64,000 bases of DNA from a bacterium. GTDB taxonomy: Bacteria > SZUA-79 > Acidulodesulfobacterales > Acidulodesulfobacteraceae. Each line of letters begins with the position of its first letter. Positions within the stretch are counted from its first letter, which is position 1. Positions 7,849-62,505 of the stretch are shown here, one piece after another. Under the pieces are notes generated by a model, which saw only the letters and a program-made list of their open reading frames with translations, was not told the DNA's origin and made no database searches. Made by a program: the position numbers and the translations under genes. Where the stretch lies: positions 1 through 64,000 of the forward strand of contig JAKAFU010000004.1 in NCBI GenBank assembly GCA_021825865.1. The letters are read 5' to 3'.

Positions 7849-8178
7849 TCAAAGCGCAATATATACTGCTCCGGACTTAACCAATTTTGCAATTTCATAA
7901 ACGCCGGCAGGCACTATCGCGGCATAATCCGGCACATCGCTGTCTTTAAGGTCAAACATATTCATTGCATTTCTGCAAACGTATATTTTTGTTTTTTCAT
8001 TAAGACTGTCCTTGAGCTGATTTCTTAGCTGAGCGTGATGAAGAAGCGAAACTACCGAAGGTCCGAAAAATACGACGGTTATTTCTTCCGTATCTTCTAT
8101 TGCAGACAAATTTTTAATTACGTTAAATGAAAGAGCAGGCATTATAGTGCCGTTTGTAACCTGAATAACATATTTCAT
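7849..8178 (-). CDS. DsrE-family protein (first of three in the window)
   Basis: From the ATG at 8178, which is preceded by TGGAGG at good spacing, this is a 109-aa protein of the DsrE/DsrF-like fold; an upstream in-frame start would add 26 residues without a ribosome binding site. The family pattern is clear: strand KYVIQVTN, VVFFGPSVVSLL, the single cysteine C68 in KIYVCRNAMN, and the end AGVYEIAKLVKSGAVYI. In DsrE-like carriers a cysteine at this place holds persulfide. Its partner is unknown, and the gene is isolated. Confidence 0.85.
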   Translation of the reverse strand: MKYVIQVTNGTIMPALSFNVIKNLSAIEDTEEITVVFFGPSVVSLLHHAQLRNQLKDSLNEKTKIYVCRNAMNMFDLKDSDVPDYAAIVPAGVYEIAKLVKSGAVYIAL

Positions 8179-8519: not shown

Positions 8520-9068
8520 TCAGTGCATCATCTGCACTTTTTTCATCATTTGCTTATGCATCATCTGCATTGTTTTCATCCAGTTCATTTTAGCAAGTCT
8601 GCGATATAGGGATTGCTGCGAAGGATAAAGAACGCGGTATCCTTTTATATGAAAAGGTATCATTTCATATCCAAGGTATGTTTCTGCGTTACCTACAGCC
8701 TTAACGTCACTAATTAATTTGCTTATGCTTGGATTACTCTGCATGGCATCCATTCTGTATTGTTTAAGCGCTTTTTTAAGCATCATTACGCCTTTTATTG
8801 TGCTATGCATCATCCCCATAGTAAGCATTTTTTCCTGTTTAAGCTGTGAAGAATTAAGATTAAAAGATTTAGCATGCATTAAAATCCAATGTGGACCTGG
8901 ATGAAATCTGTAAAAAATAGGAACAAATTTTAAACTATTATGCATAAAAATTTTCTCCACTTTCATCATCTTAGCTTTACTCATCATCATAGCGTTTGAT
9001 TTAGCAGTATTAAGACCTAAAAAAAATATTAGGGCTATCAATGTAAATAATGTAGCTTTTTTAATCAT
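8520..9068 (-). CDS. Met/His-rich periplasmic protein, Spy/CpxP-like
   Basis: The 182-aa protein starts with a signal peptide (MIKKATLFTLIALIFFLGLN...SNA). The mature part is exceptionally rich in Met, His and Lys, with HPGPHW, MGMMH and a C-terminal MQMMHKQMMKKVQMMH. Two segments (FNLNSSQLKQEKML and YRVLYPSQQSLYRRL) fit the LTxxQ-like motifs of the Spy/CpxP/ZraP family of periplasmic chaperones and metal-resistance proteins. Clustered Met and His suggest Cu(I) or Zn binding, by inference. ACGGAGG precedes the ATG. An apparent Crp/Fnr-type operator lies upstream (9146-9175). Confidence 0.7.
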   Translation of the reverse strand: MIKKATLFTLIALIFFLGLNTAKSNAMMMSKAKMMKVEKIFMHNSLKFVPIFYRFHPGPHWILMHAKSFNLNSSQLKQEKMLTMGMMHSTIKGVMMLKKALKQYRMDAMQSNPSISKLISDVKAVGNAETYLGYEMIPFHIKGYRVLYPSQQSLYRRLAKMNWMKTMQMMHKQMMKKVQMMH

Positions 9069-9124
9069 GGTTGAACCTCCGTTAAAGTAATTATTATTAA
9101 TTTATATTGTAACTGAATAATAAA

Positions 9125-9175
9125 AGTATAACACATATGAAAAATTTTAATATGTCACTTAAGTGACATATTAAA
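9125..9175 (-). promoter_or_regulatory. Class II Crp/Fnr-type promoter: 30-bp perfect palindrome plus -10 box
   Basis: Bases 9146-9175 form a perfect palindrome with core TGTCACTTAAGTGACA, i.e. TGTCA-N6-TGACA, the half-site spacing of CRP-type operators. On the minus strand TATACT (9130-9125) follows 30 bases after the palindrome centre, which puts the centre at about -42.5, the activating position of class II promoters. No good -35 box is present, as expected for an activator-dependent promoter. The regulated gene is the Spy-like one; the Crp/Fnr regulator gene is directly upstream on the same strand. Confidence 0.6.
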
Positions 9176-9222: not shown

Positions 9223-9966
9223 TTAATTTGCTGTAAACTCGGCTATATTTTTTAGTTTTATCAAATCTTTTATAATGATATTTTTTTTATCAAAACTAAT
9301 AATCCCGTTATGTTTTAATTTGTCTAATGCTATTGTAGTTCTCTGTCTTGATGCCCCGATAAGATTTGAAATTTCTTCATGGGTCAATTTAATGTTTATT
9401 TTATAGCAGTCTTTAAATGTTAATCCTGAAGAAAGTGCTGAAATTTTTTTAATTCCAAAATTATTTGCCAAATAGATTAGAGTCTCCGCAATTCTAGCGT
9501 CTATGCTTTTATATGCCAATGATGTAATTTTTGTAGATATATATTTAAACCGTAATCCTATCAATTTTAAAATTTTATTGCTTATGGAAGGATAAAGACT
9601 TAATATCTTATCAAAATCATCTTTTTTAAATTTACAAACTTCCGCATCTGTCAAAGCCTGAGCATTTTCGGCATTTAAAAAATCAAAGACCTCCACGCCG
9701 TCAAATGAAAAATCGCCAAAATTACCAAAAATTTCATCTGGCTTTAAAATTTCTGTTATAAATTCCCTGCCGTATTCTGTCGACAGCGATATTTTTATAT
9801 GACCTTTTTTTAAAACATAAACATAGCTTGATTTTGATTCCTCTATATATATAATGTCATTTTTTTTATAAATTTCCATTTTTGATAATTTATCTATCAA
9901 ATCGATATCTCTTTTTGAAAGATTTTGAAAAATTTTCAAATTTTGCAATAACCAGAGTTTATTCAT
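9223..9966 (-). CDS. Crp/Fnr-family transcriptional regulator
   Basis: The 247-aa protein has an N-terminal cyclic-nucleotide-binding-like beta-barrel (about residues 15-125, with DIIYIEESKSSYVYVLKKGHIKIS and an EILKPDEIFG segment) and a long dimer helix. A C-terminal Crp-type winged helix follows (about 165-240), with LTHEEISNLIGASRQRTTIALDKL as helix-turn-helix. It lacks the N-terminal cysteine cluster of Fnr, so direct [4Fe-4S] oxygen sensing is unlikely. Its ligand is unknown. It sits 154 bp upstream of the Spy-like gene, whose promoter holds a matching palindrome. Confidence 0.92.
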   Translation of the reverse strand: MNKLWLLQNLKIFQNLSKRDIDLIDKLSKMEIYKKNDIIYIEESKSSYVYVLKKGHIKISLSTEYGREFITEILKPDEIFGNFGDFSFDGVEVFDFLNAENAQALTDAEVCKFKKDDFDKILSLYPSISNKILKLIGLRFKYISTKITSLAYKSIDARIAETLIYLANNFGIKKISALSSGLTFKDCYKINIKLTHEEISNLIGASRQRTTIALDKLKHNGIISFDKKNIIIKDLIKLKNIAEFTAN

Positions 9967-57444: not shown

Positions 57445-57900
57445 TCAATTTGAAGTTTTATTTTTGCAATTATTGCATAGACCGAAAAACTCGACATTGT
57501 ATCCAGTGATACTATATTCTTTTTTTAATTTAGGGTTAATATAAATTTCAGTCATTTCATCGTTCGAATCGTCATAAACCTGTAAATCAATTATTTCTTT
57601 GCAGCTTCTGCAAATTATATGCGCGTGAGGGGACACATCGCCGTCATATCTGACAGCACTTTGAAAAGATTTAATTTCACGGACTTCATTTATTTCCAAA
57701 AGCATAGCAATATTTTTATATACGGTATTCAGAGAAATCATAGGATAAACTGATTTTACCCTTGAATAAACGTCAACTGCAGAAGGATGATTTTTTGATT
57801 CTGCAAGTATCCTAATAATTTCATATCTTTGAGGGGTAAGACTATAACCGTGTTTTTTTACTTTATTTAATATTTGGTCTAACCTGTTATTGTTAATCAT
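57445..57900 (-). CDS. Fur-family regulator, PerR-like
   Basis: The 151-aa protein has a Fur winged helix (YSLTPQRYEIIRILAESKNHPSAVDVYSRVKSVYPMISLNTVYKNIAML) and a C-terminal metal/dimer domain with HAHIICRSCKEIIDL and the second pair CNNC, giving the structural zinc Cys4 site. The motif set and length suit PerR (peroxide sensing through Fe-catalysed His oxidation), consistent with Tpx and other antioxidant genes in the window. It is convergent with the IorB-like gene. Confidence 0.92.
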   Translation of the reverse strand: MINNNRLDQILNKVKKHGYSLTPQRYEIIRILAESKNHPSAVDVYSRVKSVYPMISLNTVYKNIAMLLEINEVREIKSFQSAVRYDGDVSPHAHIICRSCKEIIDLQVYDDSNDEMTEIYINPKLKKEYSITGYNVEFFGLCNNCKNKTSN

Positions 57901-58164
57901 TTTATTTATTAGTCTCTATAATGAATTAAATTAAATTATAACTTATATTTGATAATTAATATTAATTATCAAATAATATATTATCAATATTTTTACATTA
58001 AAATTTTATTTAAATATAAACGCTTGCATCCAAACAAAATGCAGAACATCATAATACATTTATATTATAATAATCATTATTATATAATTTATAAAATTAA
58101 ATGTCAAATAAAATCATTAATTTTACAACAGGCATTCTTACATTATTATTTTTAAAGTGAAATC

Positions 58165-62473: not shown

Positions 62474-62505
62474 TAATAAATCATATTATATAATATGATT
62501 TATTA
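62474..62505. promoter_or_regulatory. 32-bp perfect AT-rich palindrome upstream of the moaB promoter
   Basis: Bases 62474-62505 are perfectly palindromic around ATTATATAAT, with AATAAATC and GATTTATT as outer parts. It ends 14 bases before the -35 box of moaB. It might be an operator for the moa genes, a cruciform-forming element or an accident of AT-rich sequence; length without mismatch makes chance less likely. Confidence 0.45.

Follow-up and report, generated by a model that had tools for sequence, protein, structure and literature searches.

A perfect palindrome before a Spy-like gene as the probable class II operator of a neighbouring Crp/Fnr regulator with CooA-type DNA specificity

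Results

We propose that a perfect palindrome in the window (the whole stretch of 64,000 nucleotides analysed here) is the class II operator of the neighbouring Crp/Fnr activator, which would have CooA-type DNA specificity and would switch on a Spy-like gene; judged by sequence, we consider this very likely. The computed basis consists of the site, its spacing to the -10 element, its co-occurrence with the regulator gene and the resemblance of the recognition helix to that of CooA.

On the minus strand the elements follow in the order Crp/Fnr gene (9223-9966), palindrome TTTAATATGTCACTTAAGTGACATATTAAA (9146-9175), -10 hexamer TATACT (9130-9125), ribosome-binding site GGAGGTT (9074-9080, by eye) and Spy-like gene of 182 amino acids (8520-9068). 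The palindrome, the proposed operator, may double as a hairpin ending the crp transcript, and its 16-bp core TGTCACTTAAGTGACA (TGTCAC-N4-GTGACA, 9153-9168) is proposed as the regulator binding site on the basis of the same site type in relatives. Written as half-sites it reads TGTC-ACTTAAGT-GACA. With the first base of TATACT set at -12, the predicted start falls at about 9118 and the palindrome centre, 9160.5, at about -42.5, 30.5 nt from that first base; the best match to a -35 box 16-18 nt before TATACT is 2/6 bases. The original prediction had named a perfect 30-bp palindrome, a centre 42-43 bases upstream of the start given by TATACT, a missing -35 box and the Crp/Fnr gene as the next gene upstream on the same strand, and the computation recovered each of these.

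Dinucleotide-shuffling the window 100 times gave perfect palindromes of no more than 26 bp, with no shuffle reaching 30 bp (0/100), so the one at 9146-9175 is beyond chance. The window holds two other long perfect palindromes. A Fur/PerR-like gene (57445-57900, minus strand; family by eye) starts 45 bp downstream of the first, TATTTGATAATTAATATTAATTATCAAATA (30 bp, 57946-57975), which is probably a self-regulating Fur/PerR-type operator. The second (32 bp, 62474-62505) separates the end of a groEL-like gene from a MoaB-like one; both genes are on the minus strand and were assigned by eye.

A genome search for the core, which the original prediction had put forward, returned 9153-9168 as the sole exact match to TGTCAC-N4-GTGACA. 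Scanning the window with a position-weight matrix gave no second site of at least 9 bits, and therefore neither autoregulation of crp nor control of other genes in the window is indicated. The matrix rests on seven sites, of which three are Spy sites, and high scores at these sites are by construction. We do not count two further TGTCA-N6-TGACA sites of the genome, on contig C54, as part of the regulon: the genes around them look flagellar by eye, one site is inside an ORF, and genus mates that lack the regulator have identical 16-mers.

The target protein is Met/His-rich with a signal-peptide-like start (by eye), and is predicted to act outside the inner membrane. It has no Pfam or NCBIfam match, the former in contrast to Spy/CpxP/CnrX/ZraP proteins. 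Its structural model has a mean pLDDT of 69 from a two-sequence alignment, with 79-92 per block of ten across residues 61-160. According to VIA-align, the top 19 rows for this model are NccX, CnrX, CpxP, Spy, STV and ZraP (8-16% identity) at Z 7.9-10.3, where values under about 13 can reflect an arrangement common in helical bundles. The best Foldseek hit has an E-value of 0.039 (prob 1.00), and since all E-values are above 0.03, “Spy-like” is likely but not proven; a Spy/CpxP/CnrX/ZraP fold is probable from the model. Members described so far are regulated by Cpx, Bae, Zra or CnrYXH and are not known to be under Crp/Fnr control. Downstream of the Spy-like gene, a DsrE/DsrF-like gene (7849-8178, minus strand; PF02635) is a possible further target by putative co-transcription.

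Within the genus, a relative of the Spy-like gene with at least 79% identity is present in five of the six other genomes. G003 and G005 carry the same palindrome letter for letter. The gene order in G003 is that of the window. In G005 the palindrome adjoins the remaining 3' end of crp, and a second contig carries further pieces of the gene. The pieces of the G005 regulator gene (L068 and L069; contigs C89 and C32), of which those on C89 adjoin pieces of the cytochrome gene, possibly result from insertion, recombination or misassembly. The alignment of G000, G003 and G005 has 60 unchanged columns from before the palindrome through TATAC, with changes on both flanks. In G002, G004 and G006 we found no regulator orthologue and no site before the Spy-like gene: the best 16-mer within 400 nt scores at most 0.4 bits vs 26 in the window, and 0/5 of their Spy-like copies score above 1.4 bits. 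In G002 and G006 the Spy-like gene directly follows another gene, DsrE-like by eye. The site that was predicted to be conserved upstream of orthologues is thus kept in G003 and G005 and absent from the three genomes where no regulator orthologue was found, a presence/absence test that is weak alone because the genomes are close relatives.

In other genera, regulator orthologues with 68-75% identity occur in G009, G017, G011 (two, of which that on contig C36 is interrupted by stops within the match) and G023. The regulator is patchy, occurring in 7 of 30 family genomes (in pieces in G005), and the G009 and G017 proteins are 96% identical though they come from different genera, which together suggests transfer. 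In these orthologue genomes crp is convergent on a multihaem cytochrome c gene (MtrC/F-type match), whose operon opens with the gene of a Cys-rich NPCG-repeat protein, about 67 aa long and exported (by eye). Upstream of the NPCG-cytochrome operon lies TGTCACAATCGTGACA in G009, G017 and G011 C36, and an exact TGTCAC-N4-GTGACA precedes the operon converging on crp in G009, G017 and G011. G011 C1 carries three sites: TGTAACAATCGTGACA precedes the NPCG-cytochrome operon, another stands in front of a DsrE-family gene (PF02635), and TGTCACTTAAGTGAAT lies upstream of a Spy-like gene. A different Spy-like gene, on G011 C66, is preceded by TGTCACTTAAGTGACT, and G023 has a single site between DsrE and the cytochrome operon. 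These sites before neighbouring operons mostly lie 29.5-30.5 nt from a -10.

Among the Spy-like copies that we examined from regulator-carrying genomes, 5/11 have a site (19.5-26.1 bits) and 6/11 have none within the upstream DNA examined (best 2.1 bits; G009 C1, G017 C34, G011 C42 and G023 C43, C62 and C44), so only some copies belong to the regulon. The predicted layout of a dedicated regulator and its class II target therefore survives as a class II neighbour target, with a site that follows the regulator across genera, a kept -10 spacing and CooA-like half-sites, and loses the word “dedicated” to the site-less copies.

Several side observations were made at these loci. At L065, TGTCACCAAGTTGACA (264-279) with TATGAT at 29.5 stands before a radical SAM/SPASM and PqqD-like pair; 53 bp upstream of this site, at 211-226, is another, weaker one (14.7 bits). 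The small exported NPCG-type protein encoded upstream of the cytochrome gene (L063, L064, L065, L066) has repeated NPCG/NACGKKK motifs and no Pfam match, and similar motifs are also seen near the N-terminus of some Spy-like paralogues. In L123 (G016:C155) and L124 (G007:C9) the cytochrome gene is convergent with a Spy-like gene; no regulator was found in either genome, and the pair may therefore travel together. Three loci came up in a scan of genome contigs, two in metagenome bins (YF2.bin80, LSA5.bin80) and one as a weak match in Treponema.

With one mismatch allowed, TGTCAC-N4-GTGACA has 29 matches in the 30 family genomes. Exact matches are present in 6/7 regulator-carrying genomes vs 1/23 others, the latter under a 107-aa ORF. 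A -10 (at least 5/6, at 29.5 or 30.5) accompanies 10/13 one-mismatch sites in regulator-carrying genomes vs 2/16 elsewhere (Fisher p 0.0007), a p-value that is only a guide since related genomes and an apparently mobile locus overstate independence. None of these ten sites with a -10 is under an ORF of at least 100 aa, and the remaining three are inside ORFs. Of the two sites elsewhere, that of G015 lies before a ccdA-like gene and that of G016 before an NPCG-type and then a TlpA-type gene (all by eye); by these genes they look like the same regulon, and no regulator orthologue was found in either genome (91% and 78% complete, respectively). A looser pattern with TANNNT at the right distance is present in 7/7 regulator-carrying genomes and also in 8/23 others, and several of its matches are one recurring sequence (G011, G013, G017, G019, G028).

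In G010, which we counted among the genomes without the regulator, a disrupted relative of the regulator is directly followed by TGTCTCCATCGAGACA, TATAAT at 30.5 and a DsrE-like gene (by eye; L156 6047-6654, C27). The downstream gene belongs to the family of L063:151-522 and has no Pfam match. By its sequence the locus is the layout of the window with another target; the site was found by a pattern that demands a -10, and is therefore not independent for spacing.

We compared the spacing in five distinct promoters: Spy (window), Spy (G011), NPCG-cytochrome, radical SAM and DsrE/cytochrome (G023, read in the cytochrome direction, with its -10 at 29.5). An earlier set of seven had counted two paralogous Spy and two DsrE promoters. 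All five (5/5) have a -10 hexamer, matching in at least 5/6 bases, whose first base is 29.5 or 30.5 nt away from the centre of the site, compared with an average of 0.5 promoters in shuffles, where 0/5000 rounds reach five; because the window promoter raised the hypothesis, four of the five are new evidence. Matches to a -35 box 16-18 nt before the -10 reach at most 3/6. In all five, then, an operator centred near -41.5 from the predicted start is combined with a -10 and no -35 box, as in class II promoters. Counting against a fixed spacing, the best -10 of the G011 and G023 DsrE promoters lies at 27.5 when read in the DsrE direction. In the NPCG-cytochrome promoters, GTGACA inside the site and TAAAGT at 24.5 can form an alternative sigma-70-like pair (9/12).

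The palindrome might instead be an intrinsic terminator of crp with no regulatory role. It lies 47 bp beyond the end of the crp stop codon, and on the minus strand it can fold into a strong hairpin (-16 kcal/mol, z -6.75) with AATTTTTC after it; consensus scans flag both of its strands as terminator-like, and also find a promoter-like pair on the plus strand, GTGACA-18-TAAAAT, that overlaps it. However, only 3 G-C pairs are present in the 13-bp stem, and the part that recurs in relatives, before other genes and with crp convergent or elsewhere, is the 16-bp core and not the outer arms. A location mainly at gene ends, which the original prediction had named as evidence for a terminator, was not what we found, and termination leaves the fixed -10 spacing unexplained. 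We therefore regard a pure terminator as unlikely, although the strong hairpin after the stop codon makes a second role as crp terminator possible.

The regulator of 247 amino acids belongs to the Crp/Fnr superfamily, with PF00027 (5.1e-13) and PF13545 (1.3e-12) both over the cut-off. Its best full-length PDB matches are actinobacterial CRP relatives (4cyd, presumably GlxR; 3i54 and others), with which, as with E. coli CRP, it shares the two-domain architecture by sequence and the class II geometry. A query with the HTH alone gave as best PDB match CooA 1ft9, which we take to be the R. rubrum protein (E 8.7e-5, NLIGSSRQTTSTAL against NLIGASRQRTTIAL). Among CooA structures (1ft9; Carboxydothermus 2hkx and 2fmy) is thus the closest solved recognition helix, EIANLIGSSRQTTSTAL in the regulator against EISNLIGASRQRTTIAL in CooA; CooA-1 (2hkx) likewise has TRQ. 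The recognition helix SRQRTT is part of residues 205-212, ASRQRTTI, which are identical in the six aligned regulator proteins. In keeping with this SRQ/TRQ-type helix, the window site TGTCAC-N4-GTGACA fits the CooA consensus TGTC-N8-GACA given in PMC7306483, and CooA sites appear as TGTCGGCNNGCCGACA in PMC545781.

The sensor half lacks the ligand residues that we looked for from CooA, CRP and Fnr. In CRP the cAMP phosphate cassette uses Glu72 and Arg82. The regulator has Asn82 in place of the cassette Glu in 6/6 aligned orthologues, and the column of the Arg reads V/S/S/S/K/R in the alignment to 4cyd. In contrast to CooA it lacks the haem-position histidine (IFGNF against IFCTH): Phe83 occupies, in 6/6 orthologues, the column of the only local His in Carboxydothermus CooA, taken as the haem His. 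According to PMC12937710, the haem ligands of CooA are His77 and Pro2 and its 72-82 region is absent; in the regulator, the cavity loop is longer, not shorter, and residue 2 is Asn or Ser rather than proline. The N-terminal Cys cluster for [4Fe-4S] of Fnr is absent in the six orthologues, whose cysteines are at 111 (in all, the only one common to the six), 187 (four) and 65 (one). A predicted structure of the regulator was poor (pLDDT 45.8) and was left out of the analysis.

Might another protein bind the site, for example the second Crp/Fnr protein, the sole other PF13545 protein of the genome (contig C16)? Crp/Fnr matches besides the regulator are common in the family, and G015, with a site and no orthologue, has one. 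However, the C16 protein has the helix AREVVSR, and in 7/7 genomes read the paralogue helix is GTAREVVSRAL, Arg-Glu...Arg as in CRP, where the regulator has Arg-Gln. Since CRP, according to PMC12531629, contacts bases through Arg180, Glu181 and Arg185, such a helix suggests TGTGA-type sites. With Gln in its own helix and Glu in that of the paralogue, the regulator is the better candidate for a TGTC site, and we infer that this Gln sets the C. Moreover, among the 23 genomes without the regulator a one-mismatch site with a -10 occurs only in G015 and G016, and G016 (78% complete) has no Crp/Fnr match at all. Binding by another protein is accordingly very unlikely.

Discussion

From the computed observations we infer regulator binding, activation and a role in periplasmic redox or metal chemistry. 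The regulator dimer would bind TGTCAC-N4-GTGACA through its Arg-Gln (CooA-type) recognition helix at about -42.5, where it would substitute for a -35 box, and would recruit RNA polymerase by class II activation, upon which the Spy-like gene would be transcribed. That the bound regulator instead represses this gene is highly improbable: Crp/Fnr proteins can repress, and PMC545781 predicts repression by HcpR from sites that cover the -10, but a site at -42.5 or -41.5 without a -35 box in 5/5 promoters is the layout of activation.

In related genera, the same regulator would activate a small, mostly local regulon through the same geometry: the NPCG-repeat protein with the multihaem cytochrome c, exported DsrE-like proteins, some Spy-like proteins and a radical SAM/PqqD pair. 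In contrast to those of CooA, none of the targets identified is a CO gene. The arrangement resembles the HcpR regulon of metal-reducing deltaproteobacteria, where a local Crp/Fnr gene beside a redox target was found via a palindromic site and gene order; according to PMC545781, however, HcpR sites are TTGTGA-N6-TCACAA or ATTTGACC-N2-GGTCAAAT and its targets are hcp and sulfate-reduction genes. While the operator arrangement is of a well-known type, the regulator and its small regulon are apparently undescribed; our literature search, which covered few subscription papers, found no paper on either.

To what chemistry could such a regulon belong? As a guess from sequence, the targets (Spy/CnrX-like, NPCG, cytochrome, DsrE and radical SAM/PqqD) may point to periplasmic redox, thiol or metal chemistry, and CcdA/TlpA are perhaps also among the family targets. 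With regard to the sensor of envelope or metal stress in the original prediction, the targets look like exported proteins of redox or metal type, and the sensing itself stays conjecture. A broader reading, which in our judgement could as easily prove wrong as right, is that the regulator represents an undescribed Crp/Fnr subfamily with CooA-type DNA specificity and a different sensor pocket. In this uncultured family it would move between genera with an operator-marked periplasmic module (NPCG protein, multihaem cytochrome c, DsrE and Spy/CnrX-like protein), sense a redox or metal signal and switch the module on.

A pattern spotted by eye can thus be put to the test as a regulator with its operator and a small regulon, in genomes that we know as metagenome bins. 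Spy/CnrX-type proteins, a multihaem cytochrome and DsrE proteins would be linked to one switch, in which a Crp/Fnr DNA specificity would have been retained with a different sensor.
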